Assembly (NCBI GenBank): GCA_945889495.1
Contig: CAMDBU010000044.1
Location: 1 to 38,642 of the forward strand
Length of the DNA: 38,642 nt
Origin: Syntrophobacter sp. SbD2
GTDB taxonomy: Bacteria; Desulfobacterota; Binatia; UBA9968
Direction: 5' to 3'
The position numbers were made by a program, and so were the translations under genes. Within the stretch, counting starts at the first letter, position 1. Every line of letters starts with the position of its first letter. The notes below the pieces were generated by a model, which saw only the letters and a program-made list of their open reading frames with translations, had not been told where the DNA came from and did not search any database. Shown piece by piece: positions 13,141 to 38,234 of the stretch.

Positions 13141-13163
13141 GTTTCCTCCTCTGAGCCTTCTCT

Positions 13164-13169
13164 ATTATA
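13164..13169 (-). promoter_or_regulatory. Consensus -10 element for the pilin gene
   Basis: The minus strand reads TATAAT here, 24 bases before the pilin start codon. No convincing -35 hexamer was found at 16-18 bases upstream, so only the -10 is proposed. Confidence 0.45.
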
Positions 13170-13379: not shown

Positions 13380-14405
13380 CTACTTCCCGCCGTACTCCGC
13401 ATTCATCTTATCGAAGAAGCCGCTGTCTTCGATTCGTTTCACGATGCTGGAGTCGATCAGGTTTTCGACCTTGAGGCTGCCGATCTTGGGATTCCCGGGC
13501 GTCAGCAGGCGCTGTAGCGTGCGCATCGCTTCGAGGGAGACGTAGGGTTTGCGGCCTTCTTCCAAGCGCACCAGGGTGGCGACGTCTTGGTAGGCGCCTT
13601 CGGCGATGACCGGGTCGGTCATGCGGAATTGCTTGGTGAGGGTTTCCAGTACCGCGGGCTTGTTGCGCGGGCTGCCGGTGAAGGCCATGCCCTCGATCAA
13701 CGCCATCATGACGCCTTGCAAGGTCTCGGCGTTTTGCTGCAAGTAGGGGCGCTCGACCAGCACGGTCATGCCCACCGAAGTCAATTTGGTCTGCTCGCAG
13801 CGGCCCAGCACAGTGAAGCCCTTCTCCGCCAAACGGCGGCTCAAAAACGGCGGCACCACTGTCACGTCGATGAGGCCGGATTCGAGCGATTGGGCGAGCA
13901 CGGTGACATCGCCGATGACCAGCATCTGGATGTTGTCGCGCTTCTCGTCCATGCCGAAGTGTTCGAGCCATACGGTGGCGGTCTTCCAGACGCCGCCGCC
14001 GACGCTTTGCACGCCGAAGCGTTTGCCGGCGAGATCTTTGGCGCTTTTGATATTCGGCCGGGCGACGATGTCGAGGCTCTCGCGGCTCGACAGGCTGGCG
14101 ATGATCTTCATGTCGCGGCCGCCCAGCGTGGCCGAGATGGCGGTGGGGGCGCCGCCGTAGGCGATCTGGGTGTCGCCGGAAACCAGCGTCGCGATCTGCG
14201 CCGGATTGCCGCGCACCCAGACGACTTTGGCATTGACGCCATACTTGCCGAAGAAGTTGCGCCGCTGGGTGACCCAGAGCGGGATCGACGTCGTGCTCAT
14301 GCTGGCGTGGGAGATGACGACTTCACCGGGGGCGGCGGCGAGATTGGCGGTGGATGCCAATAGCGCCGCGATGATGAGTAAAGGTAATCGGGTAATGAAT
14401 TTCAT
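13380..14405 (-). CDS. NMT1/THI5-like solute-binding protein (separate from the array)
   Basis: 341 aa from the ATG at 14405, chosen for GGAGG about nine bases upstream and because the signal peptide (MKFITRLPLLIIAALLAST...AAP) starts there; a longer frame to 14456 adds 17 unlikely residues. The mature domain has 'VVISHASMSTTSIPLWVTQ', 'KSAKDLAGKRFGVQSVGGGVW', 'RKPYVSLEAMRTLQRLL' and 'KRIEDSGFFDKMNAEYGG'. It is the most distant homologue of the array by these landmarks (KSAKDL for KRAEDL, SGFFD for SGFID). It is exported and its ligand is unknown. It lies next to the divergent Rrf2/sulfite reductase block, so sulfonate uptake is thinkable, but nothing in the protein shows it. Confidence 0.87.
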   Translation of the reverse strand: MKFITRLPLLIIAALLASTANLAAAPGEVVISHASMSTTSIPLWVTQRRNFFGKYGVNAKVVWVRGNPAQIATLVSGDTQIAYGGAPTAISATLGGRDMKIIASLSSRESLDIVARPNIKSAKDLAGKRFGVQSVGGGVWKTATVWLEHFGMDEKRDNIQMLVIGDVTVLAQSLESGLIDVTVVPPFLSRRLAEKGFTVLGRCEQTKLTSVGMTVLVERPYLQQNAETLQGVMMALIEGMAFTGSPRNKPAVLETLTKQFRMTDPVIAEGAYQDVATLVRLEEGRKPYVSLEAMRTLQRLLTPGNPKIGSLKVENLIDSSIVKRIEDSGFFDKMNAEYGGK

Positions 14406-14481
14406 TGCGCTAGCCTCCGAAGGTTGGTTGCGTGGCTGTTCGGAATATAGTCGCAATCGATTGAGCCGCGCAATCGGATAA

Positions 14482-14692: not shown

Positions 14693-15127
14693 ATGAAAAT
14701 CGGCTCAAAAGCTTACTATGGATTCCTCGCCCTGGTCGAGTTGGCGAGCAACTATAAAATCCGCCGCACCACCCAGGTGAAAGAGATCGCCAAGGACCAG
14801 GAAATCCCGTCCGAGTACCTCGGCCAGATCATGGTGCTGCTCAATCGCGCGCGCTTGGTGCATGGCTCGCGCGGGCCGGGCGGCGGCTATATCTTGGCGC
14901 GGCCACCCGAGACCATCACAGTGAAAGAAGTCATCGAAGTGCTGGAAGGGCCGTTCGCGACCTTGGAAATGCGCGCGCGTAAAAAGGGTGGGAGCGGCGC
15001 GCTGGCCACCGAGCGTTTGATCCAGACCTGGGCCAAGGGCGTGGCGGCGATGGAGTCGGTGCTGGAAGATACGACGCTTGCCGATCTGTGCAAGCCGGAG
15101 CAGGAATCCTACATGTATTATATCTAA
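14693..15127 (+). CDS. Rrf2-family transcriptional regulator
   Basis: 144 aa. An N-terminal winged helix-turn-helix covers about residues 1-85: 'MKIGSKAYYGFLALVELA', the recognition region 'EIPSEYLGQIMVLLNRARLV' and the wing 'GSRGPGGGYILARPPETIT', all standard for Rrf2. Only one cysteine is present ('LADLCKPEQ'), so an IscR/NsrR-type Fe-S cluster with three Cys ligands is not expected; it is closer to cluster-free CymR-like cysteine/sulfur regulators. Its position directly upstream of sulfite reductase and siroheme genes supports a sulfur-assimilation role. AAGGATCAAAACC precedes the ATG. A TAACTGA(A/C)TTA motif in its promoter and before the reductase gene is a candidate operator. Confidence 0.88.
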   Translation: MKIGSKAYYGFLALVELASNYKIRRTTQVKEIAKDQEIPSEYLGQIMVLLNRARLVHGSRGPGGGYILARPPETITVKEVIEVLEGPFATLEMRARKKGGSGALATERLIQTWAKGVAAMESVLEDTTLADLCKPEQESYMYYI

Positions 15128-15155
15128 ATTTCGGCGCGAAAAATTTTTGCGATAA

Positions 15156-15166
15156 TAACTGACTTA
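15156..15166 (+). promoter_or_regulatory. Candidate Rrf2 operator, copy 2
   Basis: TAACTGACTTA lies 35 bases before the sulfite reductase start codon and differs by one base from the copy in the rrf2 promoter. It falls in the 73-bp gap between the two genes. Confidence 0.35.
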
Positions 15167-15200
15167 ACCCATCAACTTACTTTTTACACGCGAGGCGAAA

Positions 15201-17495: not shown

Positions 17496-17521
17496 TGAGC
17501 TTTTGTGCAATGGACCGACGG

Positions 17522-17606
17522 AAAATTCCCCTCGATCACCCTTTTTCAAATGGGGAAGGGCTGGGTCTCTTCCCCGCTTTGGTAAAGAGGGGCTAGGGGA
17601 GATTTT
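17522..17606. repeat. Inverted repeat, 'CCCCT...AGGGG' family
   Basis: The left arm (AAAATTCCCCTCGATCACCC onward) and right arm (ending GGGGCTAGGGGAGATTTT at 17606) are imperfect reverse complements, with inner copies of TTTTCAAATGGGGA and TCCCCGCTTTGGTAAAG. It lies between the reductase and the downstream 199-aa gene and could reduce read-through in the operon. Confidence 0.6.
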
Positions 17607-17639
17607 CTTCGTCGTCGTGGCGAAACAATCGGAGTGATC

Positions 17640-18239
17640 ATGGAACTACAAAAACTCAACGTTAAGTTCTTCGTCGAGCAGCCTGACAAAATCGCGCTCA
17701 CCGACTTTATCGATGTCTTTCATTCATGGATTCAAGCCACCGACGGCGTCTATCACGATGTCGCGGACTATAGCCATATGCAGGCCGGGCCGGGCGTTGT
17801 GTTGGTGGCGAACAGCGCCAATGTCAGCATTGACGAGAGCGGCGCGCGGCGCGGCTTGCTGTTCAGTCAAAAGGCGCCGCTCACTGGGTCCAACCAAGAG
17901 AAAATTCGCGCCGTGCTGGGCGCCGCTTTGGACAACTGCCGCATGCTCGAAGCCGAGCCGGCCCTCAAGGGCAAACTACGCTTCGCCGCCAACGAAGCGC
18001 TGCTGTCGGTCAACGACCGCCTGGTAGGCGAGAATTCCCAGCAGTCTTTCGACGCGCTCAAGGGCGATGTCGAAGCGGTGGCGCGGCAATTATTCGGCGG
18101 CGCCAACGTGAGTGTGGAACGCAACGCTGATTCGCACCGGCAATTGAATGTGCATATGAGAAGTTCGGCGGCCATGGACACGGCCCAAGCGCTGCGCAAT
18201 CTAACAGTTCACTCACCTATTGGCGGAGCGCTAACATGA
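17640..18239 (+). CDS. Conserved-looking protein of unknown function in the siroheme block
   Basis: 199 aa from the ATG at 17640, with GGAG five bases upstream. I do not recognise the family. No signal peptide or membrane segment is visible. The N-terminal half is 'LNVKFFVEQPDKIALTDFID', followed by 'HSWIQATDGVYHDVADYSHM' and 'GPGVVLVANSANVSIDESG'; the C-terminal half is helical and ends with 'RNADSHRQLNVHMRSS'. Its stop overlaps the start of the uroporphyrinogen methyltransferase gene (ATGA), so the two are translationally coupled. Placement between the reductase and cobA suggests a function in siroheme delivery or sulfite reduction, which is inference only. Confidence 0.8.
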   Translation: MELQKLNVKFFVEQPDKIALTDFIDVFHSWIQATDGVYHDVADYSHMQAGPGVVLVANSANVSIDESGARRGLLFSQKAPLTGSNQEKIRAVLGAALDNCRMLEAEPALKGKLRFAANEALLSVNDRLVGENSQQSFDALKGDVEAVARQLFGGANVSVERNADSHRQLNVHMRSSAAMDTAQALRNLTVHSPIGGALT

Positions 18240-19030
18240 ATCCGGGTAAAGTCTATCTCGTCGGCGCCGGTCCCGGCGATCCCGGGTTGATGACCATGCG
18301 CGGTATGCAATTGCTGCGTGCGGCTCAGGTGGTGGTCTACGATCAACTGGTCAATCCGGTGTTGCTCGAAGAAGTTCCAGTCGACGCCGAGCGCATATTT
18401 GTCGGCAAGCAGGCGGGCAAGCATTGCATCGCCCAGGGCGACATCAACGAAGTCTTGATCGGCTACGCCTGGCGCGGCATCGATGTGGTCCGGCTCAAGG
18501 GCGGCGATCCGTTTGTCTTCGGCCGCGGCGGCGAGGAAGCCGAGGCGCTACGCGATGCCGGGGTGGCCTTCGAGATCGTTCCCGGCGTTAGCTCCGCCGT
18601 TGCGGTGCCGGCCTACGCCGGGATTCCGCTGACCCATCGCAACTACGCCTCGTCCTTCGCCGTGGTCACCGGCCATGAGGCGGTCAAGTCAAAATCCACC
18701 GTCGACTGGGCCAAGCTCGCCACCGCGGTGGACACGCTGGTGATCTTGATGGGGCTGCATAACTTGCCATCCATCGTCGCCAAGTTGCTGGCTCATGGCC
18801 GTTCGGCCAACACCCCGGTGGCAGTGATCCAGCAGGGCACCACGGAGCGGCAAACGACGGTGACCGGCACACTGGCCGATATCGTCGAGCGCGCGCGCAC
18901 GATCAAGGCGCCGGCGCTGATCGTCGTCGGTGAAGTGGTGCGATTGAAAAGCGCCCTCGATTGGTTTTTTCCCAATGGCGACGCTGAGCCGGCGCCAACC
19001 GCGCACCGGGTGCAGGATCATGGTGAATGA
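18236..19030 (+). CDS. cobA: Uroporphyrinogen-III C-methyltransferase
   Basis: 264 aa. It transfers two methyl groups from S-adenosylmethionine to uroporphyrinogen III, giving precorrin-2, the first committed step to siroheme. The tetrapyrrole methylase fold is shown by '[12 protein letters not shown]' at residues 7-18, '[20 protein letters not shown]' at about 84-103, '[20 protein letters not shown]' and 'VVTGHE'. It is single-domain, unlike CysG fusions; the dehydrogenase partner is separate, downstream at 19198. It overlaps the preceding gene by four bases. Its 3' end overlaps the possible small gene at 19020. Confidence 0.95.
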
Positions 19031-19295
19031 TTCGCTTTCTGCCGTCTGGGGCGACGATCTCGACCGCTTGGCGACCGAGGAACTCATGGATTGGGCCCAG
19101 GGCATGGATTATTTCGGCGACCAACCGTTTGTCTGGGAGGGCCATCACGGGTTAGATTCGCAGCTAGAGATCGATCTCCAGCCGAGTTTAAACGCCGATG
19201 AGCTATTATCCAATTTACCTCGACATGAGCGGCCGGCGCTGCCTGGTGATCGGCGGCGGCGTGGTGGCCGAGCGCAAAATCGCCAGCTTACTTGA
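19020..19295 (+). CDS. Small overlapping ORF of unknown function
   Basis: 91 codons from the ATG at 19020, which overlaps the last codons of cobA. The first 60 residues are acidic and gene-like ('DDLDRLATEELMDWAQGMD', 'YFGDQPFVWEGHHGLD'), but the last 32 codons overlap the next gene in another frame and look like shadow sequence. It may be a real short protein with an overlapping end, or the start of a gene truncated by the overlap. It fills a 167-base gap that otherwise has no coding content in a tightly packed operon, which is the main argument for it. No known family recognised. Confidence 0.4.
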   Translation: MVNDSLSAVWGDDLDRLATEELMDWAQGMDYFGDQPFVWEGHHGLDSQLEIDLQPSLNADELLSNLPRHERPALPGDRRRRGGRAQNRQLT

Positions 19296-19827
19296 AGCCG
19301 GTGCCCTGCCGACGGTGATAAGCCCGGCGATCACCGATACCATCGCTCGCTGGTCGAAGGATCATTCAATCGAATTGATCGCCCGCCGTTATCAATCTAG
19401 CGATTTAGCCGAACATGAAATCTGTTTTGTCGCCACCGACGACGGCGCGGTGAATGCTCAAGTGTTCAGCGACGGCCGGCGCTTGGGCGTGTGGATTAAC
19501 GCCGCCGACGACCCAGCCCACTGCGATTTCATCCTGCCTTCGGTCCTGCGCCGCGGCGATCTCACCGTGGCGGTGTCCAGCGGCGGCACCAGTCCGGCAT
19601 TGTCGCGCACCATCCGCGAAGAACTCGAACTTTATTTCACCGCTGAATACGAACTGTTGGTCAAACTGGCGGCCGAAGCGCGCGGCGAACTTCAGGCGCG
19701 CGGTTTGACGGTGCCGTTTGAAACCTGGCGGCGCGCCTTGAGTGGCGATGTGCGCCAGCTACTCATGCGCGGCGATGTCGGCCGCGCCAAGGCGCTGTTG
19801 CTGCGCGAATTGGGTGTGGAACCGTAA
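19198..19827 (+). CDS. Precorrin-2 dehydrogenase / sirohydrochlorin ferrochelatase (Met8/CysG-N type)
   Basis: 209 aa. It oxidises precorrin-2 to sirohydrochlorin with NAD+ and inserts Fe2+, giving siroheme. The N-terminal Rossmann motif is 'RRCLVIGGGVVAERKIASLL' with glycines 19-21; 'FVATDDGAVNAQVF' and 'NAADDPAHCDFILPSVLRRG' follow, then 'VAVSSGGTSPALSRTIREEL'. The Asp residues in these stretches include the likely shared catalytic Asp of the family. Length matches stand-alone Met8/CysG-N proteins. It is read in the same direction as cobA and hemD, so the operon covers uroporphyrinogen III to siroheme. Confidence 0.93.
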   Translation: MSYYPIYLDMSGRRCLVIGGGVVAERKIASLLEAGALPTVISPAITDTIARWSKDHSIELIARRYQSSDLAEHEICFVATDDGAVNAQVFSDGRRLGVWINAADDPAHCDFILPSVLRRGDLTVAVSSGGTSPALSRTIREELELYFTAEYELLVKLAAEARGELQARGLTVPFETWRRALSGDVRQLLMRGDVGRAKALLLRELGVEP

Positions 19828-23840: not shown

Positions 23841-23925
23841 GACGGGTGCGGGCGCGATGCCTGCAGCGAGCACGCTGGTGGCGCCAGCGATGGGTTTCGC
23901 TTCGCTCAAACTATCCTACGGGATT

Positions 23926-24044
23926 TGTCATTCCCGCGCAGGCGGGAATCCAGGTCGCGGGCAAAGTCCGTCAAACTGGTGACGGCCGGAATCCAGGTGT
24001 GGCGGAGTGGGGTTTCGCCTGGATTCCGGCCTACGCCGGCATGA
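23926..24044. repeat. Palindromic dispersed repeat interrupted by the intron
   Basis: The left hairpin arm TGTCATTCCCGCGCAGGCGG (from 23926) is followed by GAATCCAG, and the right arm CTGGATTCCGGCCTACGCCG (from 24019) ends GCATGA. The two ends are reverse complements, and each end is itself a short hairpin (CCCGC/GCGGG; CCGGC/GCCGG). This is the common 'TCATTCCCGC...GAATCCA' type of bacterial intergenic repeat. The group II intron starts directly after its GCATGA end. Confidence 0.8.
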
Positions 24045-24777
24045 GTGCGCCCATGAGGGTGCTGCATCAGCACGGTGAAAGACCGTGTCGGAGTAAGCCA
24101 CAACTCCGAAGCCGAAGGTAACTGCGTCGTCGCGAGGCGGGGTGGAGAGCAACCGGAGGCGAACAGTCGGTCCGTAGGATAACGAACTCGATTCGGCGGG
24201 AAACTGCGACGAGCCTGCTCATACATGGCGAAGTCCGAAACTCGCGGGTCACGCTGGCGTGGTGGTAAGCGATGACTCGGCAGTCCACGTGGTTGGAGAC
24301 GGAACGACAAGAAGGTGTGGCGCAGTAAGTGGGGAGACCTGCGCCGTAGGTGAGCGGTGTAGGAGTCAGAGCCTTCATGGTACCGCAGCGGTGAGGAGCC
24401 GCGAGAAGCGCTGAAAGCAAAGCAGCGCCGAGGGACGGGAGGTAGGAAGGTGGATGGGAGAGAGTCAAAGCGGAGCAGAGCGAGGAGCCAGCGTCGATAG
24501 TGCCCGCAAGGGCTAAACAAGACGCAGAGACCCAGGGGCCAAACGGGCCGTGAGTTAAAGCCCCGCAGTGAAAGGAACCCATGTTGGCGGCGCTGGGTAA
24601 CGGCGTCCAAAGAGACGAGACTCTTTTTCGCTGTGCACGGATTGTTCACCAAGATTGCAATCTGTGGACTGGCGAGCCAATCCCGATGAGGAAACCACCG
24701 ACTGGAGAGCCGTGTGCGGGAAAACCGCACGCACGGTTCGGAGGGAGGGGACGGCGAAAGCCGTTTCCTACCCCTAT
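24045..24777 (+). mobile_element. Group II intron without an intron-encoded protein
   Basis: It begins with GTGCG (24045-24049) and ends with AT (24776-24777), the group II boundaries. Domain V (24707-24739) and a domain VI hairpin with a bulged A eight bases from the 3' end (24741-24777) are both clear. The upstream 650 bases are rich in short helices and GAA-type loops expected of domains I-III. At 733 nt it is close to ribozyme size; no reverse transcriptase/maturase reading frame fits in domain IV, so mobility or efficient splicing would need a protein made elsewhere. A long reading frame on the opposite strand (23906-24817) is a known kind of false gene over such RNA. It is in the same orientation as the M24 gene upstream. 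Domain V has the AGC triad, unlike class C introns. Subclass not assigned. Confidence 0.85.
24707..24739 (+). ncRNA. Group II intron domain V
   Basis: GAGCCGT pairs with ACGGTTC at the base, then GTGCGG pairs with CCGCAC, with a two-base GC bulge on the 3' side and a GAAAA loop. This is the catalytic domain V layout, with the AGC triad at 24708-24710. Confidence 0.85.
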
Positions 24778-24813
24778 CTGAAACTTCGCGCCGCGGCAAT
24801 TCCGACAAACGTG

Positions 24814-26256
24814 TCATCGCTTTATGCCAATCATCTCTTTCAACAGCGCGGGATACTTCCGGTCCAATTCCGCTTTCAGCGTATCGGTCACCGCGTTCAC
24901 CGGCGGGAATTTATCTTTCCATTCGTAGGGCCGGGTGGCGTCGATGATGGCGCGGGAGTTGAAACCTTTGCGTTCGCGCGGGATCGCCGGGTCGAGCGGG
25001 CCGCTCCAGCAGCGCCGCAGGATGTCGATGTTCTCGGGCTCCGAGCGCGTGCCGATGGCCCAGATGACATCGTTGGGATTGTAGATATCGACATCGTCGT
25101 CGACCACGACAACATAGCGGCCGAGATAGGCGCCGGGGCGGCATTGGCTGGCGATCAGCGCCGCTTGTTTGGCGTGGCCGGGATAGCGCTGCTTGATTTT
25201 CAAGATCGAAAAAAATCGGTAGGCGGCGGGGTGGAGCCAGACGCCTTGGACATCGGGAACGCCGGCGTCCTCCAGCGCATTCCAGATCAGCGCCGAGCGC
25301 TGGATCGAGCGGTGAAAGCCTTGTCCCGCCGACGGCCGCAGCGGCGGTTCGCCGCACAGGATCGGATTGTTGCGATGATAGAGCGCTTTGATGCGCACCA
25401 CCGGCTCGGGCCGCGTCGCGCTGGCGTAGTAGCCGGGCCATTCGCCGAACGGCCCTTCGGGGAGATCGTCGCCGGGGATCATTTCGCCCTCGATGGCGAT
25501 CTCTGAGTAGGCCGGGATCGGCAGGCCGGTGAGCGGTCCGCGCACCAGTTGCACCGGCTCGCCGATGACGCCGCCGGCGTAGTCGAACTCGCTCATCTTG
25601 TTGGGCACGTCGGTGCAGCCGGCCAAAAACAAAATCGGATGATGGCCGAAGGACATCACCACCGGACAGGGTTTGCCGGCGTCGAAATATTTCTGCCGCT
25701 GGACGCGGCCATGCTTGCCCGGTGAGATGTAGAGCGCGACGGCGTCCTTGCCTTGGAGCATGACGCGATAAGTCCCGGCGTTGATCCAATGCTCTTCGGG
25801 ATCTTCGGTGATGACTAGATCGTCGGTGCCGATATAGCGGCCGCCGTCTTCCTCATGCCAACGCGGGATCGGGAAGGCTTCGAGGTCGATGTTTTTATCG
25901 ACACGGTTCTCGAAGATCGGCGCGTCCTTGACGAACTCGGCGGGTACCGGAGCGAAGTTGCGGATCTTCTTGCGCCAGGCCTGAATGAAATCGGTTAAGG
26001 GCAAATTGGGATCGGTGCCCATGGCGATGGCCAAGCGCGGCAGGGTGTCGATCTGGCTGCACAGAATCTCCATGTCCTGGCGCGCGCCGGGAATCTTTTC
26101 GAACAGCATGGCCGGCGGATGGGCGCTGCGTTCGAGGATCATCTCGACCAAACCGCCCAAATCTTTGTCCCAGGGTATGTCAGCGATGCGGCGCAGCTCG
26201 CCGATCTTGTCGACTTCGTTTAAAAACGCGCGCAGGTCGTGGTTGGATGGGGTCAT
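24814..26256 (-). CDS. UbiD-family decarboxylase (copy 1)
   Basis: 480 aa, cytoplasmic. UbiD enzymes use prenylated FMN to (de)carboxylate aromatic or alpha,beta-unsaturated acids. Landmarks: 'RWHEEDGGRYIGTDDLVITE' at about 150-170, 'AGTYRVMLQGKDAVALYISP', 'VMSFGHHPILFLAG', and the active-site stretch 'EIAIEGEMIPGDDLPEGPFG' followed by EWPGYY, with the conserved acidic residues intact. 'VVVVDDDVDIYNPNDVIWAI' near the C-terminus is also typical. AAGGA lies about ten bases before the ATG. It is the last gene of the minus-strand cluster that starts at 31516, downstream of a PqqC/TENA-like gene. The stop is 36 bases from the intron. No UbiX (prFMN synthase) is in the window. Confidence 0.92.
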   Translation of the reverse strand: MTPSNHDLRAFLNEVDKIGELRRIADIPWDKDLGGLVEMILERSAHPPAMLFEKIPGARQDMEILCSQIDTLPRLAIAMGTDPNLPLTDFIQAWRKKIRNFAPVPAEFVKDAPIFENRVDKNIDLEAFPIPRWHEEDGGRYIGTDDLVITEDPEEHWINAGTYRVMLQGKDAVALYISPGKHGRVQRQKYFDAGKPCPVVMSFGHHPILFLAGCTDVPNKMSEFDYAGGVIGEPVQLVRGPLTGLPIPAYSEIAIEGEMIPGDDLPEGPFGEWPGYYASATRPEPVVRIKALYHRNNPILCGEPPLRPSAGQGFHRSIQRSALIWNALEDAGVPDVQGVWLHPAAYRFFSILKIKQRYPGHAKQAALIASQCRPGAYLGRYVVVVDDDVDIYNPNDVIWAIGTRSEPENIDILRRCWSGPLDPAIPRERKGFNSRAIIDATRPYEWKDKFPPVNAVTDTLKAELDRKYPALLKEMIGIKR

Positions 26257-26287
26257 CTCGGGTTGTCCTTCGAAGTGTTTTTGTTTG

Positions 26288-26346
26288 GCGTCTAGGGTCT
26301 AGCGTCTCGGGTTAACGCCAGACGCTAAACGCGGGACGCTAGACGA
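26288..26346. repeat. Inverted repeat built from the word GTCTAGCGTCTCG
   Basis: GGCGTCTAGGGTCTAGCGTC (26288 onward) is complementary to the segment ending GACGCTAGACG (26346), with a GTTAAC centre. A second copy lies at 27143-27210. The two copies flank the PqqC-like gene at 26350-27123. Confidence 0.75.
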
Positions 26347-26349
26347 TCT

Positions 26350-27123
26350 TTAAGTGGCCAGCTCCACCGCCGCGCGGTGCATGACGCCGTAGAGGTCGAC
26401 GGCGGCCAGAGCGCAGTATTCCAAGTTATAGCCTTCGCGGCAGTCGGCGTAGCCGTCTTCTAAAATGCGCTGCATGACCATTTTATTAAACGTGCCATGG
26501 CCCATGATGCCGTCTTCATGCTCTTTCAAGTCGGCTTCTTCGTGGGTCTTAAAATAGACCGCTTGCGGTTTGGTAAAGCCGTATTTCTGCGTCAGTGTGC
26601 GACCCCACATGGCCGACCAGTGGCCGATGGGTTCTTCCGTCAGCATGGAGAACCACCACTCGGCGACCGTTCCCTCCCACATCAGCTGCCGTTTGAAATC
26701 TAATATCGCCCGGCACTCGGGCAGCATCGGCGTGCGCAGGATTTCATCTTTGCTGAGGCCGAAGGCTTCGGCGGTCTGGAGCATGACCAACACATGGCCG
26801 GGCGGTTTGGGATGAATGAATTCGTCGGCGATTTTCACGCCGAGCGGCGCCATGAGATCGTCGTGGCGTTTAAAAAAGCCGATATGCTTGTGATAGGAGA
26901 CCGACACCAGGGTGTTGATCTCGACGGTGAAGTTGCCCCAGTTTTTGAAAAATAATTTCACCGCCGACATGGGCAGCTTGCCGTCGAGAAACGGCTTCAT
27001 GAACGGGCCGTCGGTGACGCGCTCCTTCCAACGCTGGATGACTTTCTTATTGAGCGCGGCGATGTAGGCTTTAGCATCGTCAGGGCTCATCTTGACGCCG
27101 AGTTGGGGGATGATCTGGCTCAT
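26350..27123 (-). CDS. PqqC/TENA-like heme-oxygenase-fold protein, possible di-iron oxidase (copy 1)
   Basis: 257 aa, all-helical, no signal peptide. It looks like the iron-containing redox branch of the TENA/THI-4/PqqC superfamily. Residues conserved with the paralogue at 30773-31516 include 'KNWG' (60-63), D100-E101 and H104/H110 in 'DEFIHPKPPGH', E155 in 'AEWWFS', and H194-x3-D198-x3-H202 in 'THEEADLKEH'. Such Glu/His/Asp sets bind iron in heme-oxygenase-like oxidases (CADD, UndA relatives), so an O2-dependent oxidation is plausible. It sits 93 bases upstream of UbiD copy 1 in the same transcript direction, suggesting that the two act on one substrate. No good ribosome site is visible. Substrate unknown; the metal role is inferred. 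Confidence 0.8.
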   Translation of the reverse strand: MSQIIPQLGVKMSPDDAKAYIAALNKKVIQRWKERVTDGPFMKPFLDGKLPMSAVKLFFKNWGNFTVEINTLVSVSYHKHIGFFKRHDDLMAPLGVKIADEFIHPKPPGHVLVMLQTAEAFGLSKDEILRTPMLPECRAILDFKRQLMWEGTVAEWWFSMLTEEPIGHWSAMWGRTLTQKYGFTKPQAVYFKTHEEADLKEHEDGIMGHGTFNKMVMQRILEDGYADCREGYNLEYCALAAVDLYGVMHRAAVELAT

Positions 27124-27142
27124 AAATCGATTTGAACGTTGA

Positions 27143-27210
27143 GGGTCTGGCGTCTCGGGTCTAGCGTTTCCGGATTAACCCCAGACGCCAGACGCTAGAC
27201 GCTGGACCCA
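27143..27210. repeat. Inverted repeat, second copy of the GTCTAGCGTCTCG family
   Basis: GGGTCTGGCGTCTCGGGTCT (27143 onward) pairs with the segment ending AGACGCTGGACCC, around a GATTAACCCC centre. It is related to 26288-26346 but not identical. Confidence 0.75.
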
Positions 27211-27214
27211 ATGA

Positions 27215-28126
27215 TTAGGTTCTATACAGATTATCGATAAAACCGCTGTCGTCGATTCTCCGCAGATGGTGAAAATCCCACAGCGCCATGGGGTCGCATT
27301 TCTCGGCGTCTTTGTTTTGCTCGACGGCGATTTCGTAGACGTTGGAGATCGCCGGGATGGTCGCGTAGGGTTTGGCTTGCAGGATCATTTTCAAATCGTC
27401 GTAAAGGTGCGTCGCCATCTCGTCGTCGAGTTGGCCTTCGGCGGTATACTTTTCTTTAATGATCTTGATGCACTCGGCGCGGTGAGTCTTGAAGTAGGCG
27501 ATGCCTTCGCAGATGCCGCGCAGCATCTTGTCGACGATGTCGGGATGTTTTTCGACGAAGGCCAGGCCGCTCGACACCGTGGTGAACCAGACCATCGGCA
27601 GGTAGGCGACGTCGATGACTTTTAACCCGGCGCGCTTGGACTGAATGTCCGCCGGCGGGGTGACGAAGGCGGCGTCGGCTTCACCGTCGCGCACCGCTTC
27701 CCAATGAAACTTGCTGCCTTTGGTTTTCTCCACATGGCACTCGTTGAGCAGGCCGGCCTGCTTGATGAACAGCCAGGTGTTGAGCCCCGGATGGTTGCCC
27801 TTGGTGGCGACATGTTTGCCCTTCAAGTCGCTAAGTTTGTTGATACCCGAGTCGGCGCGCACGACCATCCGGTGATTGAGCAGGCTGACGGTCTGGCCGA
27901 GATAGACCCACTTGTCGCCTTTGGGGCGGCGGATATAGGGCGACAGATGATTGCCGCCGACGAATTCGACCGAGCCGTTGGCGACGTTGGCGTGGGAGTC
28001 GGCCGAGGTGATCTCGTAATCGTAATTCACTTCCAACCCATGCTTGGCCCAGGCGCCCGACTCATGCACGACATGCAGGAAAGGCAGATGGCTGTCCGAA
28101 CGGTAGGGGAAATTTACTTTGTCCAT
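27215..28126 (-). CDS. Solute-binding-protein-fold (NMT1-like) protein without signal peptide
   Basis: 303 aa. It starts directly with the fold's first strand ('MDKVNFPYRSDSHLPFLHVV') behind a strong GGAGG eight bases upstream, so no export signal exists and the product should be cytoplasmic. Landmarks: 'SGINKLSDLKGKHVATKGNH' (hinge strand), 'AVRDGEADAAFVTPPADIQ', and a C-terminal 'RRIDDSGFIDNLYRT' that matches the LDDSGFID tail of the secreted array at 3912-11618. Cytoplasmic members of this superfamily can be enzymes, such as 4,5-dihydroxyphthalate decarboxylase or the THI5/NMT1 pyrimidine synthase, so an enzymatic role beside UbiD and PqqC-like genes is a fair hypothesis. It is 91 bases upstream of the PqqC-like gene in the same direction. 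Substrate unknown. Confidence 0.85.
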   Translation of the reverse strand: MDKVNFPYRSDSHLPFLHVVHESGAWAKHGLEVNYDYEITSADSHANVANGSVEFVGGNHLSPYIRRPKGDKWVYLGQTVSLLNHRMVVRADSGINKLSDLKGKHVATKGNHPGLNTWLFIKQAGLLNECHVEKTKGSKFHWEAVRDGEADAAFVTPPADIQSKRAGLKVIDVAYLPMVWFTTVSSGLAFVEKHPDIVDKMLRGICEGIAYFKTHRAECIKIIKEKYTAEGQLDDEMATHLYDDLKMILQAKPYATIPAISNVYEIAVEQNKDAEKCDPMALWDFHHLRRIDDSGFIDNLYRT

Positions 28127-28225
28127 GCTGTGATCCTCCGGAAAAGTTTTCGTTGGTGTGAAACGCTGGGCGCAACCTACAAGGAAAGTGTTGGGGCTTC
28201 AAGCCCAATTTAGCGGCGCCATGGG

Positions 28226-29245
28226 CTAGCGCAGGACGCCTTCTTTGCGCAGTTCCTGCTGGGCTTCTAACAGCAAACGATTGTCGAAGATGGTCGACTG
28301 CGGCGCGGTGAATTTCACTTTCGCCAGCTCCGCTTCCAACTGGATCGACGCGCGCATGGCGCCTTCGGTCAGGGTGCCGTCGGCGCTGAAAATCGCGCCG
28401 AGATTTTTATACAAATTCTCCGCGGTGGCGCCGTCGACGCTCATCCACTCGCCGATCAGTTTGGCGGTCTCGTCTTTTTGCGTGCGGATGAAGCGCTGGC
28501 TTTCGATGAACGCTTTGATCATGCGCTTGACCTGTTCGGGGGCTTTTTGCAATTTTTGCTCGCTGACATCCAGGCCGGAGATCGGAATATCGACTTGATC
28601 TTTGTCCCAGAGCAAAACCTTATAGCCCATCGCGGTACCGAGGGAATCCAGTGGCGGGCCATGGGAGGCGGCGTCGATGCGGCCGGCTTGCATGGCGGCC
28701 AATTGGCTGCGCACGTCGCCGGCCGGCAGGATCTTCACGTCCTTGGTCGGGTCGATGCGGAACTGATTTAAGATCGTCAGCAAACTCAAATGGATCGTGC
28801 TGCCGGCCGAGCTGACGCCGATGGTTTTGCCTTTTAAATCGTTAAGCGATTTGACCTCGGGCTTGGTCAGGACCATGAAGATAACTTTTTCCGCGCCCAT
28901 CATGACCAGCTTCACCGGGATGCCGCGCAGCGCCGCCGATACTGCCGGCTGAAAGCCGTTGTAATAATCGAGATCGCCGCTGAGTAGCGCCGGTACGGCG
29001 ACTGACGAGCGCAGAAGGACGATCTCCGGGCGGAAGCCGTATTTCGCATAAAAGCCTCTTTTCTCGGCGACGAACAGCGGCAGCGAGCCGAAGCCGCGGC
29101 TGGAAACGCCGATGCGGACGCGCTCCTGGGCGTGGGCGATGCTGGCGCTGGCCGCGATCGATAGCAACAAGAGCGCAACCGCGGTGGGGCTCGACCGACC
29201 TTTCGGTCGGATCAGTCGTATCGGACGGATCGCGGGCAGCTTCAC
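28226..29245 (-). CDS. NMT1/SsuA-like solute-binding protein in the UbiD cluster
   Basis: 339 aa from a GTG at 29245 that overlaps the UbiD copy 2 stop (GTGA), a coupling arrangement; an in-frame GTG at 29269 lies inside UbiD and is less likely. The signal peptide has a long basic n-region 'IRPIRLIRPKGRSS', encoded by a GGTCGGATCAGTCGTATCGG-type repeat (29191-29232), then a hydrophobic core ending 'IAHAQ'. The mature domain has 'RVRIGVSSRGFGSLPLFVAE', 'VKSLNDLKGKTIGVSSAGST' and 'MQAGRIDAASHGPPLDS'. It lacks the SGFID tail of the array and so belongs to another branch. It is exported, and is probably the uptake or sensing protein for the substrate of the UbiD module; no permease is present. 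Confidence 0.87.
   Translation of the reverse strand: MKLPAIRPIRLIRPKGRSSPTAVALLLLSIAASASIAHAQERVRIGVSSRGFGSLPLFVAEKRGFYAKYGFRPEIVLLRSSVAVPALLSGDLDYYNGFQPAVSAALRGIPVKLVMMGAEKVIFMVLTKPEVKSLNDLKGKTIGVSSAGSTIHLSLLTILNQFRIDPTKDVKILPAGDVRSQLAAMQAGRIDAASHGPPLDSLGTAMGYKVLLWDKDQVDIPISGLDVSEQKLQKAPEQVKRMIKAFIESQRFIRTQKDETAKLIGEWMSVDGATAENLYKNLGAIFSADGTLTEGAMRASIQLEAELAKVKFTAPQSTIFDNRLLLEAQQELRKEGVLR
29191..29232. repeat. CGGTCGGATC-type repeat inside a signal-peptide region
   Basis: CCGACC-TTTC-GGTCGG (29195-29210) forms a hairpin, and ATCAGTCG/TATCGGACGGATCG words follow. The segment encodes the basic n-region of the binding protein at 28226-29245. Confidence 0.5.
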
Positions 29246-30663
29246 TTGAGTCCCAACTTGGGCGCCCACTTTTCCCAGACCTCCTCGCGTTTGTCGGCGC
29301 TGAACTTATTAGCGATGGCGAACTTGTCGCGCCAGTGAAACGGTTTGGTGGCGTCGATGAGCATTCGGCCCATGGTGAAGTCGCCGCGTTCGCGTTTTTC
29401 CGGCGCCAGGCGCGGGTCCAAGTCGGAGGTCCAGGATTTCAAAATCTGCACCGACTCGGCGGGATCGACGCGGGTGCACATGGCCCAAATCACTTGCTTC
29501 AAATCCACCGGATCGATGTCGTCGTCCACCGCGATGTAGTAGCGGTACATGCTGGCGCCGGTCATCATGCCGGCGACCGCGGTGAGCGCTTGCAGCGCTT
29601 GGCCGGCGAAGCGCTGCTTGAGGGCGACCACGACCATCAGCGTGTGACAATGGCACCACACGCCTTGCACGTCCGACACGCCGGACTGTTCCAAATGATC
29701 CCAGATGCGCGCGGCGAATAGCGGAATGCCGTAGCGTTCGGTGATCGGCAGGAGCGGCGGGTTGCCGAGTAGGATCGGATCGTCGCGGTGTAAAATTCTT
29801 TTCACCCGGACGACGCACTCTTCGCCGCTGTGGGTGTAATAGCCGGGCCACTCGCCGAAGGGACCTTCGCTGTGGCTTTCTTCTTCCGGCGGCGGCATCT
29901 CGCCTTCGACGACGATCTCCGCGGTGGCCGGCACCGGCAGGCCGGTGTAGGGCGCGCGGATTACTTCCAACGGCGCACCGCGGAGCGCGCCGGCGTATTC
30001 GTATTCGCTGACGCCGGCTTTTGCCGCTGACGGCGCGGCCATCCATGTCGCCGGTTCGCAGCCGAGCACGATGGCGACTGGGCAAGGTTTGCCCATTTGC
30101 CAATATTTGCGGGCGATCTGCTTGCCATGCTTTTGCTCGATGATCCAGAGCGTCAAACGGTCCTTGCCGACCACGCAGGAACGATAAGTGCCGACGTTGA
30201 CCCAGCCGCTGTCGGGATCCTTGATCACCACCATGTCGCCGGTGCCGATGTAGCGGCCGCCGTCATGCTCATGCCATTTGGGCGTCGGGAAGATTTCTAA
30301 ATTGACTTTGTCGCCTTCAAGAACGTTTTCGAGCACCGGTCCGGTGGCAACTTCGATGGGCGCGAAGGCTTTCAAATCGCGAATCTTGTTGCGCCAGGTG
30401 CGCAAGATTTCCAACTTCGGTACATCGGTGGGCAGGCTCAGCGCCAGAGCGAAACGGCGTGCGCTGGCGAGCACATTGGCGGCGATGCGAAAACCTTTGG
30501 GGTAGCCGGGGATGTTGTCGAAGAGCAAAAGCGGCCCTTCCTGCTCGGCCATGAGCTCGGTCAAGCAGCCGATCTCAAGATCCCAATGGGCGCCGTCGAT
30601 GTGTTGCAACTCGCCGATCTTACCGGCGCCGTCAATGAAAGTTCTTAAGTCAGAAAAAGCCAT
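29242..30663 (-). CDS. UbiD-family decarboxylase (copy 2)
   Basis: 473 aa from the ATG at 30663, preceded by GAGGAGC; an in-frame start nine codons upstream lacks a ribosome site. Landmarks parallel copy 1: 'KWHEHDGGRYIGTGDMVVIK', 'VGTYRSCVVGKDRLTLWIIE', and the active-site stretch 'EIVVEGEMPPPEEESHSEGP' followed by FGEWPGYY, with a slightly longer acidic loop. 'YYIAVDDDIDPVDLKQVIWA' lies near the C-terminus. Copies 1 and 2 clearly share a sub-branch but differ in loop lengths, so different substrates or a hetero-oligomer are both possible. It follows the PqqC-like copy 2 gene and overlaps the next binding-protein gene by four bases. It needs prenylated FMN from elsewhere. Confidence 0.92.
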   Translation of the reverse strand: MAFSDLRTFIDGAGKIGELQHIDGAHWDLEIGCLTELMAEQEGPLLLFDNIPGYPKGFRIAANVLASARRFALALSLPTDVPKLEILRTWRNKIRDLKAFAPIEVATGPVLENVLEGDKVNLEIFPTPKWHEHDGGRYIGTGDMVVIKDPDSGWVNVGTYRSCVVGKDRLTLWIIEQKHGKQIARKYWQMGKPCPVAIVLGCEPATWMAAPSAAKAGVSEYEYAGALRGAPLEVIRAPYTGLPVPATAEIVVEGEMPPPEEESHSEGPFGEWPGYYTHSGEECVVRVKRILHRDDPILLGNPPLLPITERYGIPLFAARIWDHLEQSGVSDVQGVWCHCHTLMVVVALKQRFAGQALQALTAVAGMMTGASMYRYYIAVDDDIDPVDLKQVIWAMCTRVDPAESVQILKSWTSDLDPRLAPEKRERGDFTMGRMLIDATKPFHWRDKFAIANKFSADKREEVWEKWAPKLGLK

Positions 30664-30683
30664 TGCTCCTCGCTTCGCTCGGA

Positions 30684-30748
30684 ATTTCAAATCTCAAATT
30701 TCATATCTCAAACTCCGATTTGGAATCTGAAATCTGAAATTTGAGATT
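30684..30748. repeat. Inverted repeat built from the word AAATCTCAAATTTC
   Basis: TTCAAATCTCAAATTTCATA (30684 onward) is complementary to the segment ending GAAATCTGAAATTTGAGATT (30748). It is the fifth short-word dyad family in the window and lies between PqqC-like copy 2 and UbiD copy 2. Confidence 0.7.
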
Positions 30749-30785
30749 CGCGACCCATTAGCCACGTAGCGGCTAATGGGTCGCG
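30749..30785 (-). terminator. Perfect 15-bp hairpin straddling a stop codon
   Basis: CGCGACCCATTAGCC (30749-30763) and GGCTAATGGGTCGCG (30771-30785) are exact reverse complements with a 7-base loop. The right arm contains the last codons and the TAG stop of the gene at 30773-31516. No T run follows, so it may attenuate or stabilise the mRNA rather than terminate it. Confidence 0.4.
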
Positions 30786-31516
30786 TCATAGCAGCCGTTC
30801 ATGAACATGCGATTCAAGTCCGTCGGCGTGACCGCGCAGTACTCCGCCGAGTAGCCGGGCCGTTCGTTGACGCCTTCCTGGAGTAGGCGGACGAGCACAT
30901 GCTGGGTCACCGCGCCATGGGCCATGCGGTCGAGATGGTCCATGGTGTCGGCTTCATGATGTTTGGAAAAATAACTGGCCTCAGCAGTGGTCAGGCCGTA
31001 GTGCTTGGTCAACGCTTTGAAAAAATCCAAACAGGAATCGCCGAAGGGTTTTTCCCAGAGCACAGAGAACCAATATTCCTGAATCTGGCCGTCGTTGATC
31101 AGCGTCCGATGAAAGTCCGGCAAGGCGCGGCATTCCGCCAGCATGGGCGTGAGCAGCACTTCTTCCTTCGACAGCCCCAAGGCGGCGCCGGTGCTCATGA
31201 GTATTTGAATATGGCCGGGCGGCGAGGGATGGCCGAACTCGTCCAGGACTTTTTGCGTGTAGACTTCCATCAGGTCGACGTTCTTGACGAAAAACCACAA
31301 GTGTTTGTAAAACGCCGAGGTGTACACCGAGTTGATCACCGGCACGAAGGCGCCCCAGTTTTTATAAAATAGCTGGATGGTTTCTTTCTTGAGCTTGCCC
31401 TCGCGCAGCTCGTCCATGAATTTGGTTTTGTCGACGGTCTGTTTCCAACGCTGGTCGCACTTGGCCGCCAGCTCGGCGATATATTCCTTGGCTTGGCTTT
31501 CGTTCAACTTCAACAT
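30773..31516 (-). CDS. PqqC/TENA-like heme-oxygenase-fold protein, possible di-iron oxidase (copy 2)
   Basis: 247 aa, all-helical and cytoplasmic. It shares with copy 1 'YKNWG', 'DEFGHPSPPGH', 'QEYWFS' and the 'HHEADTMDH' motif (H-x3-D-x3-H), the likely metal ligands; the Glu in copy 1 'FTVEINTL' is Val here ('FVPVINSV'), so that Glu is not essential. AAGGAG lies seven bases before the ATG. It is the first gene of the six-gene minus-strand cluster, with a candidate promoter at 31556-31584. Its partner UbiD follows about 110 bases downstream after a repeat and hairpin. The same pair recurs at 24814-27123, which supports a joint decarboxylation/oxidation function; substrate unknown. Confidence 0.8.
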   Translation of the reverse strand: MLKLNESQAKEYIAELAAKCDQRWKQTVDKTKFMDELREGKLKKETIQLFYKNWGAFVPVINSVYTSAFYKHLWFFVKNVDLMEVYTQKVLDEFGHPSPPGHIQILMSTGAALGLSKEEVLLTPMLAECRALPDFHRTLINDGQIQEYWFSVLWEKPFGDSCLDFFKALTKHYGLTTAEASYFSKHHEADTMDHLDRMAHGAVTQHVLVRLLQEGVNERPGYSAEYCAVTPTDLNRMFMNGCYDATH

Positions 31517-31584: not shown

Positions 31585-31658
31585 GCCGCTCGGCCGCTTG
31601 CCCAAGGCAAGAGCAGTAGGATAGAGTGAGCCAAATCAGACTTGAGAAAGGAACATCC

Positions 31659-32024
31659 ATGGAATTCTTAAACCTGCAAGAAGAAGCCAGCAAGGCGCAA
31701 CGCAAGGTCGATCTTTACGGCACCGATAACTTTCGTTCGTGGCTGCTTTATTTCGTTCCCGGCGACGGCACGGATATGCATTATCACGCCAGCCCGGAAA
31801 CCTTTCTAGTTTTCTCAGGTAGCGGCGTGGTCAAGGGGATCAAGGGCGAGGAGAAGGCGATCAAGCAGCATGATGTGCTCTGTTTGGCGCCTAAAGATTA
31901 CTACCAGATCGTCAACACCGGGACCGAGCCTCTGGTGCTGTTCGGCAATCGTTCCGAGGCCTTCGGCGGCGCCCATATTCTCGCCGACGGCAGCGACCGG
32001 CAGCAGATTCAAAAGGGCGCCTAG
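31659..32024 (+). CDS. Cupin-domain protein
   Basis: 121 aa from the ATG at 31659, behind AAAGGA; an in-frame GTG at 31626 has no ribosome site. It is a single cupin beta-barrel: motif 1 'DMHYHASPETFLVFSGSG' gives two His and a Glu as metal ligands, and motif 2 is reduced ('DVLCLAPKDYYQIVNTG', without the usual final His pattern). Roles range from small dioxygenases and isomerases to ligand binding. It is divergent from the UbiD/PqqC-like cluster across a 142-bp region, so a shared regulatory region is possible. Confidence 0.85.
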   Translation: MEFLNLQEEASKAQRKVDLYGTDNFRSWLLYFVPGDGTDMHYHASPETFLVFSGSGVVKGIKGEEKAIKQHDVLCLAPKDYYQIVNTGTEPLVLFGNRSEAFGGAHILADGSDRQQIQKGA

Positions 32025-36662: not shown

Positions 36663-38234
36663 TTACCGGCCGGTGCGCGCCAGCGAATGCACCCAGCCTT
36701 GCATGCGGCCTTTGGCGTTGGCAATGTCCTTTTCGGTGAACCAATTTTTCAGATCGACGCGGTCGACCGGATAGACCGGGCGCATGAAGTCGCTCTCGTA
36801 GCCGAAGGGCACGGTGGCGTCGATACCCATGCCGCCTTCGAAACTGGTGTTCGACGCGGTCCATTCTTTTTCACCAGCGGTCATACGCTCGGCGGGCATG
36901 AAAGTTTGGCCGCGGCCGCCGGGCAGCGGATTGATGATGTCGGTTTTTGGATTGACGCGTGTGGTGATGTTCCACATGATGTCGTCCATGTCGTAGGGAT
37001 CGCTGTCTTCGCTCACCGCGACCACCACGCGTGACCCTTGCGAAGTCGCCAGAATCGCCGCCATGAAATTGCGCTGCCAGCCTTCTTCGATGCGGTTGCG
37101 TTTCTTCACCTGGATGATCGCGCCGCCCCAATCGGTCATGCAATAGGGAATGTTGACGTCCATGATGATGCCAGGCTGCATTCTTTCGCAAAGCTCGAAC
37201 ATGCAGGCCTCGCGCACGGTGGTATCGATGTTGTGATCGTCGAGAGTGTGGACGCCGAGGGGAAAGATAATCGGCTTGCCTTCGCGCCTTCGCGTGGTCA
37301 CGGCGGTGACATGGAAGGTCGGCGCTTTGTACGCTTTACCCATGTAGCCGGCCCATTCCGGATGGAAATGGAAGCGGCCCTGGATGCCGGCTTTCTCCGA
37401 CTCCGCGGTTTCGAAACGGCGATCGCGCGGATTCACATAACCTTCGAGAATGACCTCCGCATCGGCCAGCGCGTAGGCGTCGACGGTGCGCGCTTTGACC
37501 AAGCGCATGGGCGCCCCTTGCACGGCGCCGGCGATGCCGACTTCATCGCAGCCCTGGGGCAGGATGACGTAATCGAAGCCGGCGCCGGCGAGCAGCGAGC
37601 CCGCCACCGGCAAGCCGAAGTTCATGGTGATCGGCACCATTTTTTTGTCTTTGTAATATTTGCTGACCACCTGCCACATATGCGAGCCGGGGGAGATTTG
37701 GAAAGTGCCGACGTTGCCCCAGCGGAAGTTCATGCGGTTGTAACCGAGATCGGTGCCGCCGTTGAAATATTCGCCGGAGATCAGACGGTTGCCGGAACCG
37801 ACGGTCAGTTCGGGTTCGATATCGGTATGACGGATCGGCACGACGAAGTCGTTGGCTTCCGCCGGCTTTTCAAAAACTTCTTCTTGCACCGGCGCGTCTT
37901 TTTGCTCGACGACGATGGGCGCGATCGGATGGGTGACGGCGTAGGCGAGCTTGCGGGTGCGATCGGCGTGGTCCTTCCAGCCGAACATCTTGTTGATGAC
38001 GTTCATGTCGCCGAACAAGTTGGTGATGCAGCGATGCTGCGGCTTGCCTTTGACGTTATTGAACAGGATCGGGCAGCCACCGTCGAGCTTTTTCTGGATG
38101 CCGGTGAGTTCCAGGTTGGGGTCGACCTCTTTGTCGGTGACGATGATGTCGCCCTCTTTTTTCATCCACTCGATGGAACTACGCAGGTCCCGACATTCTT
38201 CCGGCGATGCGCCGTCTCGCTTTGCTTGTGCCAT
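36663..38234 (-). CDS. UbiD-family decarboxylase (copy 3, divergent)
   Basis: 523 aa, longer than copies 1 and 2. UbiD features: 'PIRHTDIEPELTVGSGNRLI', 'RMNFRWGNVGTFQISPGSHM', 'LPQGCDEVGIAGAVQGAPMR' and 'VVVAVSEDSDPYDMDDIMWN'. The active-site segment differs: 'EVILEGYVNPRDRRFETAES' is followed by 'QGRFHFHPEWAGYMG', so the usual EGPFGEWPGY is replaced by QGRFHFHPEWAGY, keeping the second Glu. This suggests another UbiD subfamily with a different substrate or a carboxylase-type role. GGAGG precedes the ATG and TATAAA lies at 38302-38297 on the minus strand. It is a single-gene unit closed by the terminator at 36606. Confidence 0.9.
   Translation of the reverse strand: MAQAKRDGASPEECRDLRSSIEWMKKEGDIIVTDKEVDPNLELTGIQKKLDGGCPILFNNVKGKPQHRCITNLFGDMNVINKMFGWKDHADRTRKLAYAVTHPIAPIVVEQKDAPVQEEVFEKPAEANDFVVPIRHTDIEPELTVGSGNRLISGEYFNGGTDLGYNRMNFRWGNVGTFQISPGSHMWQVVSKYYKDKKMVPITMNFGLPVAGSLLAGAGFDYVILPQGCDEVGIAGAVQGAPMRLVKARTVDAYALADAEVILEGYVNPRDRRFETAESEKAGIQGRFHFHPEWAGYMGKAYKAPTFHVTAVTTRRREGKPIIFPLGVHTLDDHNIDTTVREACMFELCERMQPGIIMDVNIPYCMTDWGGAIIQVKKRNRIEEGWQRNFMAAILATSQGSRVVVAVSEDSDPYDMDDIMWNITTRVNPKTDIINPLPGGRGQTFMPAERMTAGEKEWTASNTSFEGGMGIDATVPFGYESDFMRPVYPVDRVDLKNWFTEKDIANAKGRMQGWVHSLARTGR

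Follow-up and report, generated by a model that had tools for sequence, protein, structure and literature searches.

Most heme-oxygenase-fold dimetal oxygenases (HDOs) of known role take part in natural-product or cofactor synthesis, and the UbiD-family decarboxylases, which use prenylated flavin mononucleotide (prFMN), have mostly been studied singly. Here we analyze a cluster of six genes, hdo_A, ubiD_A, sbp_A, sbp_B, hdo_B and ubiD_B, in this order on the minus strand from position 31516 to position 24814 of a 38,642-nucleotide stretch of Syntrophobacter sp. SbD2 (contig CAMDBU010000044.1; the whole stretch is hereafter the window), in which members of both families stand side by side twice. 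The double pairing, and the gene order with one exported and one signal-less binding-fold protein, had been reported in a preliminary description of the window, and all six open reading frames (ORFs) are present as stated there; the copies have indeed diverged, with 44% identity between the HDOs and 41% between the UbiDs (24% over 288 columns for sbp_A and sbp_B). We give a probability of about 0.5 to the reading of the cluster as an aerobic module for the catabolism of an aromatic or heteroaromatic carboxylic acid, in which oxidation by an HDO is coupled to prFMN-dependent decarboxylation. The observed basis consists of the gene order, the protein families, the conserved ligand residues, the catalytic motifs and the linkage of the two gene families across lineages.

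The HDO and UbiD proteins of the cluster

The cluster HDOs share with the rest of the HDO superfamily the predicted fold and the 3His/3carboxylate residue set, and differ from it in forming a subfamily of their own, linked to UbiD and to catabolic-looking genes. Both match Haem_oxygenas_2 (PF14518) just above the cut-off of 28.9 bits (hdo_B, 32.9 bits; hdo_A, 30.6 bits). The model of hdo_A, built on an alignment of 32 sequences (predicted local distance difference test score, pLDDT, 93.3; predicted template modeling score, pTM, 0.90), has CADD (1rcw) as its closest solved fold (Z 24.1, 2.1 A over 212 residues), followed by PqqC (Z 21.8), HrmI (21.1), UndA (20.8), FlcD (19.5), BesC (18.6) and RohS (17.6), and CADD is also the first solved relative found with the profile of this alignment (E 3.6e-10). 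In hdo_A numbering, E93, H102, E147, E155, H186 and D190 are invariant in all 32 sequences and H96 and H194 are present in 31; at the sequence level, the 3His/3carboxylate set is kept in 31 of the 32. Among the nine close HDO paralogues in the same genome, H102 is invariant and H96 is variable. In the profile alignment with CADD, whose metal ligands we take to be E142, H174, D178 and H181, the first three coincide with E155, H186 and D190 of hdo_A, and H194 lies one residue past the fourth.

Model and alignment identify the proteins, previously termed PqqC-like, as HDOs, which are probably metal-dependent. The ligand list given for "copy 1" in the preliminary description follows the numbering of hdo_B, not that of the first minus-strand gene; as a residue set it is conserved, which agrees with the metal site proposed there, with one correction. 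The ligand glutamate is probably E163 of hdo_B (E155 of hdo_A), and the listed E155 (E147 of hdo_A), another invariant glutamate, is probably no ligand because it is E163 that aligns with E142 of CADD.

CADD is the closest described protein by both fold and profile, and the cluster HDOs differ from it at Tyr27, at Lys152 and in the spacing of the last histidine. According to the accessible text of PMC11965152, Tyr27 and Lys152 are the self-sacrificing residues of CADD. In the 32 aligned sequences, the Tyr27 column holds Met (30 sequences), Val or Phe, and the Lys152 column holds Phe, Trp, Cys or Val; because both residues are absent, the cluster HDOs are not p-aminobenzoate synthases, and their TIGR04305 scores are 15.2 and 18.9 against a cut-off of 200. 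Two further candidates were rejected, namely PqqC, whose NCBIfam model gives no match to hdo_A or hdo_B with E up to 0.1 and picks up 3 of the 32 aligned sequences with E up to 0.01, and the thiaminase II TenA, whose model TIGR04306 matches neither window copy and, weakly, 4 of the 32 relatives (best 0.00091). A search of a plasmid collection with hdo_A gave no match. Far from the two main lineages discussed below, a metagenome-assembled genome (MAG) of Bacillota (JADBKH010000031.1) contains a fragmentary HDO (L066; 53% identical over 182 residues); this MAG has no UbiD match, and the fragment could result from misbinning or be what is left of a transferred gene.

The UbiDs of the cluster share with the UbiD-family prFMN (de)carboxylases the motifs, homology over the whole length and a UbiX encoded in the genome, and differ from the characterized members in that their genes are coupled to an HDO. 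UbiD (PF01977) is matched with 216.4 bits by ubiD_A and 205.5 bits by ubiD_B (cut-off 23.3), UbiD_N and UbiD_C also score above their cut-offs, and both proteins pass the broad subfamily model TIGR00148. UbiD_A contains NVGTYR and EGPFGE, and UbiD_B NAGTYR and EGPFGE; we take the Arg and Glu of these N-x-GTYR and EGPFGE motifs to represent the E-R-E catalytic triad. The best solved relative of both is 7pda (604.9 bits for UbiD_A and 339.8 bits for UbiD_B, full-length homology), which is labeled just "UbiD family decarboxylase", and no paper joining this structure code with UbiD was found in the literature searched. The genome has one UbiX gene above the cut-off (237.3 bits, cut-off 108.9), located away from the cluster; another match, at 22.5 bits, stays below it.

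No characterized NCBIfam equivalog is reached by ubiD_A or ubiD_B, the phenylphosphate carboxylase, VdcC and menaquinone models all scoring below their cut-offs. The top NCBIfam score of both is that of the phenylphosphate carboxylase beta model (TIGR02724; 282.3 and 301.0 bits), which, together with the recurrence of two UbiDs near one HDO (see below), would fit unequal subunits of one carboxylase or decarboxylase, as in phenylphosphate carboxylase, with the HDOs as accessories. However, both scores are far under the cut-off of 468.95, so that the beta assignment itself was rejected, and a single UbiD beside an HDO also occurs, for example on contig C77 of the same genome; accordingly, we consider an enzyme of unequal subunits quite improbable. 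A third, distant UbiD is encoded in the window (36663-38234, minus strand); it is 23% identical to UbiD_A and UbiD_B, and the usual catalytic motifs were not picked up in it with simple patterns.

Linkage of HDO and UbiD genes

Eight genomes of the window's order have an HDO_A orthologue (matched in part in G004), as do 7 of the 11 examined from an order of Alphaproteobacteria. A same-strand UbiD gene lies within 1.4 kb of HDO_A in 12 of these 15 genomes, at 3.3 kb in G059 and at about 4 kb in G012, where tandem HDO_B and HDO_A matches were merged and the 3269 bp distance runs to HDO_B; all these distances are between hidden Markov model matches and cover UbiDs up to 6 kb away. Some of the gene maps used for other loci contain spurious frames from automatic ORF choice (for example, L059, L077 and L088). 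Three alphaproteobacterial genomes (G065, G068 and G069) have the order UbiD-HDO-UbiD with gaps of 32-80 bp, and SBP_B is found within 2.7 kb of HDO_A in 7 of the 15 genomes. Conservation of the pair in other genomes had been named beforehand as one check on the proposed pathway; the pair is conserved in two lineages, and refutation by non-conservation therefore fails. In G068, of the Alphaproteobacteria, HDO_A and SBP_B are surrounded by five UbiD genes within 15 kb; the sequence stretch ends inside one of these genes.

The partner UbiDs are 65-86% identical to UbiD_A in G004, G013 and G015 of the window's order, 27-48% identical in the Alphaproteobacteria, and 26 and 44% identical in G009, again of the window's order. 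Given the low identities in the Alphaproteobacteria and G009, the partner is not simply one inherited neighbor; as far as these comparisons go, HDO keeps company with UbiDs in general.

Altogether 53 distinct HDO loci were first collected, of which 19 have a UbiD gene, on one or the other strand, no more than 2.5 kb away; the loci came from chosen neighborhoods and from a search with a pattern derived from four paralogues, in which 31 of the 189 stretches were confirmed, so that the linked fraction is not an unbiased one. For the tree, L044_6458 (which crosses a frame change), L035 (weak) and L064, L065 and L066 (broken or partial) were removed, L043 was split in two, and L113, L114 and L115 were added, giving 52 rows. 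In the HDO_A clade (support 100/100), 11 rows are linked, 2 are unlinked and 1 lies at a contig end; in the core HDO_B clade (100/98), 6 are linked and 1 lies at a contig end; and in a third clade of 21 rows (98/92), none is linked, 17 being unlinked and 4 at contig ends. Thus, 17 of the 18 linked rows fall in two well-supported clades, the other being that of C77 (L032), whose nearest tree neighbor is unlinked. Given this concentration, linkage belongs chiefly to particular HDO lineages, and given the clade without linked members, an HDO does not need an adjoining UbiD. The tree rules out a recent tandem duplication of hdo_A and hdo_B, and the "duplicated module" of the preliminary description is better described, judging from the phylogeny, as two old, separate HDO/UbiD pairs brought together.

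The window's own genome (5.64 Mb in 239 contigs, 95.6% complete) contains 36 UbiD matches and 26 HDO genes, that is, 25 PF14518 matches (20 above the cut-off) and the gene on C77. A same-strand UbiD lies within 3 kb of 6 of the 26 HDO genes (0.59 expected; as many in none of 2000 random placements) and within 1.5 kb of 3 (0.35 expected; as many in 9 of 2000); genes were placed uniformly, ignoring contig ends and operon clustering, and the two pairs of the window are among the six. Among the nine close HDO paralogues, three adjoin a UbiD (two in the window and the one on C77). Expansion of UbiD is common to the window's order, where each of 35 genomes has from 16 to at least 43 matches at E<=1e-25 (up to 125 candidates); in the other orders of the class, none of 23 genomes has a UbiD at this threshold, which weaker UbiDs would escape (at first look, these genomes give 0 to 5 candidates). 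In each of four relatives from the Alphaproteobacteria, 14-16 UbiD matches were counted, and among 14 control genomes, 9 have UbiD family matches and 2 have PF14518 matches.

These numbers bear on the possibility that the linkage is a by-product of family expansion, with UbiD, HDO, NMT1 and cupin genes being shuffled into catabolic islands and HDO and UbiD serving different substrates. A single genome combines the UbiD and PF14518 arrays with at least 150 NMT1 proteins (482 candidates), six of the nine close HDO paralogues are not beside a UbiD, and the random-placement test presupposes that there are no such islands. Nevertheless, we regard shuffling as unlikely: proximity in the own genome exceeds uniform random placement, linkage follows two HDO clades, and the UbiD-HDO-UbiD arrangement is tight in three alphaproteobacterial genomes. 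A different role for the HDO, and the boldest of the alternatives, is the maturation or protection of the UbiD cofactor, in which reduced prFMN on the adjoining UbiD would be oxidized to its active iminium form, comparable to PqqC finishing pyrroloquinoline quinone; this would account for the presence of HDO beside non-orthologous UbiDs in two lineages and for the single above-cut-off UbiX serving 36 UbiDs, and the same-fold proteins PqqC and CADD act in cofactor synthesis. Such a helper function appears very improbable given that an HDO within 4 kb is the exception among the 36 UbiDs (seven HDO genes at most are that close) and that one entire HDO clade shows no UbiD linkage; furthermore, to our knowledge, known UbiDs mature without a helper of this kind.

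Binding proteins, neighboring genes and layout

The binding protein sbp_A matches PF13379 (65.1 bits) and PF09084 (NMT1; 59.7 bits, cut-off 20.5), and its N-terminus, inspected by eye, is a signal-like stretch ending AHA-QE. For sbp_B, the PF09084 score is 46.1 bits against the same cut-off; the protein begins directly at the mature domain, its ATG is preceded by a GGAGG and an in-frame stop codon, and no signal peptide was seen by eye in the nine complete N-termini among ten aligned sbp_B sequences from the window's order and the Alphaproteobacteria. The sbp_B model is weak (pLDDT 67), and its nearest folds are a mixture of the transport proteins ThiY, SsuA and PqqT with the cytosolic enzymes Thi5, DszB and MqnD; a PDB sequence search with sbp_B alone gave no match at E up to 0.1. 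Thus, sbp_B resembles in fold both the ThiY/SsuA-type NMT1 binding proteins and the enzymes, and it is signal-less. Uptake by both binding proteins, as assumed in the preliminary description, is not borne out: sbp_B and its orthologues lack a signal, and there is no permease or ATPase among the Pfam-tested window ORFs, a subset of all ORFs. Because SBP_B orthologues also occur without a labeled UbiD neighbor (for example, in G007, G021, G024 and f3 genomes such as G027), the role of SBP_B is wider than the module. Eight more NMT1-type binding-protein genes are located at 3912-14456 on the minus strand of the window, seven of them near-tandem (3912-11618), and a permease or ATPase is also absent among the ORFs tested around them.

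Thiamine salvage, by a TenA-like hydrolase and ThiY/THI5-like proteins, would be in line with the NMT1 matches, with the appearance of both ThiY and Thi5 in the fold list of sbp_B, and with the Pfam TENA_THI-4 scores (23.9 bits for hdo_B, above the cut-off of 22, and 18.5 for hdo_A, below it). We find it barely credible: the HDO ligand set is complete, TIGR04306 is matched weakly in four relatives and in neither window copy, and we know of no place for UbiD in this pathway.

The families found near HDO genes elsewhere point to catabolism. Bicupins resembling gentisate and 5-aminosalicylate dioxygenases are present in UbiD and HDO clusters on C18 and C167 of the own genome, in the order HDO-bicupin-UbiD with one extra gene before the UbiD on C167, and in L114 of the alphaproteobacterial order; the C18 bicupin matches 3bu7 at E 1.3e-66 and scores below the equivalog cut-offs. 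The likeness to the gentisate and 5-aminosalicylate pathways lies in these loci and is not shared by the cassette of the window, which has no bicupin. The UbiD and HDO cluster on C77 includes an amidohydrolase and a dihydrodipicolinate synthase (DHDPS)-type aldolase, VOC proteins are found in L059 and L063, and bicupins, amidohydrolases, DHDPS-type aldolases, a fumarylacetoacetate (FAA) hydrolase and VOC proteins recur as neighbors of HDO genes whether these are UbiD-linked or not. All of these families are involved in aromatic catabolism, among other roles, and aromatic catabolism is therefore favored; this is the main ground for the catabolic reading. Beside another HDO of the own genome (L112, contig C93), two adjacent, similar, unlabeled proteins are encoded at 6148-8180, whose starts may resemble those of 4,5-dihydroxyphthalate decarboxylase-like binding-fold enzymes.

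The same neighbors weigh against a cluster that makes an aromatic compound, either a natural product or a cofactor, as known HDOs do. In the accessible text of PMC13108848, the HDOs of known function make natural products or cofactors, and the nearest folds, CADD and PqqC, are both makers of cofactor parts; however, no synthase, carrier-protein or peptide-synthesis family is present among the window ORFs tested, the neighbor families elsewhere look catabolic, and Tyr27 and Lys152 of CADD are absent. Biosynthesis is, in our view, rather improbable.

Within the cluster, the gaps from hdo_A to ubiD_B are, in order, 82, -28, 99, 91 and 93 nt (Table 1) and would allow a single transcript for the six genes. 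Scans for promoters (3, compared with 3.3 in shuffled sequences) and terminators (12, compared with 10.3) gave no excess over shuffles; one weak minus-strand stem lies in the gap between sbp_A and sbp_B. GAGGAG is located just upstream of the alternative ATG of ubiD_A. The divergent cupin, followed by zinc-ribbon and dienelactone-hydrolase genes, forms a flank that accompanies HDO_A in G001, G002 and G004 and, without the cupin, in G015.

Table 1. Genes of the cluster and the adjoining cupin gene, with window positions
Gene	Position	Strand	Description
hdo_A	30773..31516	-	HDO, 247 aa; putative ligands E93, H96 or H102, E155, H186, D190, H194
ubiD_A	29242..30690	-	UbiD-family decarboxylase, 482 aa (TTG start) or 473 aa (ATG at 30663)
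sbp_A	28226..29269	-	NMT1/THI5-type solute-binding protein, 347 aa; signal peptide by eye; 28-nt overlap with ubiD_A
sbp_B	27215..28126	-	Signal-less NMT1-fold protein, 303 aa; near HDO/UbiD genes in two lineages
hdo_B	26350..27123	-	Second HDO, 257 aa; putative ligands E101, H104 or H110, E163, H194, D198, H202
ubiD_B	24814..26256	-	Second UbiD-family decarboxylase, 480 aa
Divergent small cupin	31626..32024	+	132 aa; PF07883, 35.9 bits; outside the module

Two other features of the window were recorded. Group II intron RNA matches (RF02001, 36.4 bits; RF00029, 63.1 bits) occupy 24126-24777 on the plus strand and end at a distance of 36 nt from the stop codon of ubiD_B. A reverse transcriptase would not fit into the 650 bp between the matches, and the minus-strand ORFs 23906-24817 and 24067-24582 across the matches look spurious. 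At 14693-19827 on the plus strand, genes for an Rrf2 regulator, a nitrite/sulfite reductase-like protein, a tetrapyrrole methylase and sirohaem synthesis are arranged in a row.

A possible oxidation-decarboxylation unit

In the scheme that we infer for the catabolic module, sbp_A would bind the acid outside the membrane; inside the cell, each HDO, with its predicted 3His/3carboxylate dimetal site, would use O2 to oxidize the ring or a side group, most simply by hydroxylation; and the partner UbiD, with prFMN supplied by the genome's UbiX, would remove the carboxyl group. The two HDO/UbiD pairs may act on successive intermediates, with the product passed to ring-cleaving enzymes encoded elsewhere, and sbp_B may be a cytosolic NMT1-fold protein, either a substrate carrier or an enzyme of that fold. 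Compared with the aromatic-acid pathway of the preliminary description, the UbiD motifs, the HDO ligand set and the catabolic neighbor families speak in favor of the general idea, with the substrate and the order of the steps remaining proposals.

Several observations weigh against the module. The cassette itself has no ring-cleavage gene, and no permease or ATPase was found nearby among the ORFs tested. G002 has no UbiD within 6 kb of HDO_A, its UbiD_A being located elsewhere, beside SBP_B, HDO_B and UbiD_B; HDO_A of G004 is matched just in part; and the partner of HDO_A varies even within the window's order, as in G009. The third HDO clade has no linked members, and the biosynthetic roles of the characterized HDOs cited above point the same way.

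More generally, and more tentatively, somewhat short of even odds, HDO and UbiD could constitute a reusable oxidation-decarboxylation unit for many aromatic acids, aerobic and multiplied in two uncultured lineages. If so, this would be a catabolic role for an HDO and the largest UbiD array described; we know of no earlier catabolic role for this kind of HDO and of no larger array. Both protein families are already known; what is new relative to the literature searched (titles and the starts of abstracts, with subscription journals mostly outside) is that they are coupled, that this occurs in two lineages and that the UbiD array is so large, no description of the pairing or of such an array having been found there. 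In their accessible portions, the main text of a 2026 HDO review (PMC13108848) contains neither "UbiD" nor "degradation", and that of PMC8262859 does not contain "decarboxylase".

A conserved HDO-UbiD unit, if real, would extend the HDOs to catabolism and provide substrate clues for orphan members of both families. Enzyme pairs of this kind might be used to make phenols from aromatic acids. For the uncultured bacteria that carry dozens of UbiDs, the unit would offer a handle on their diet.

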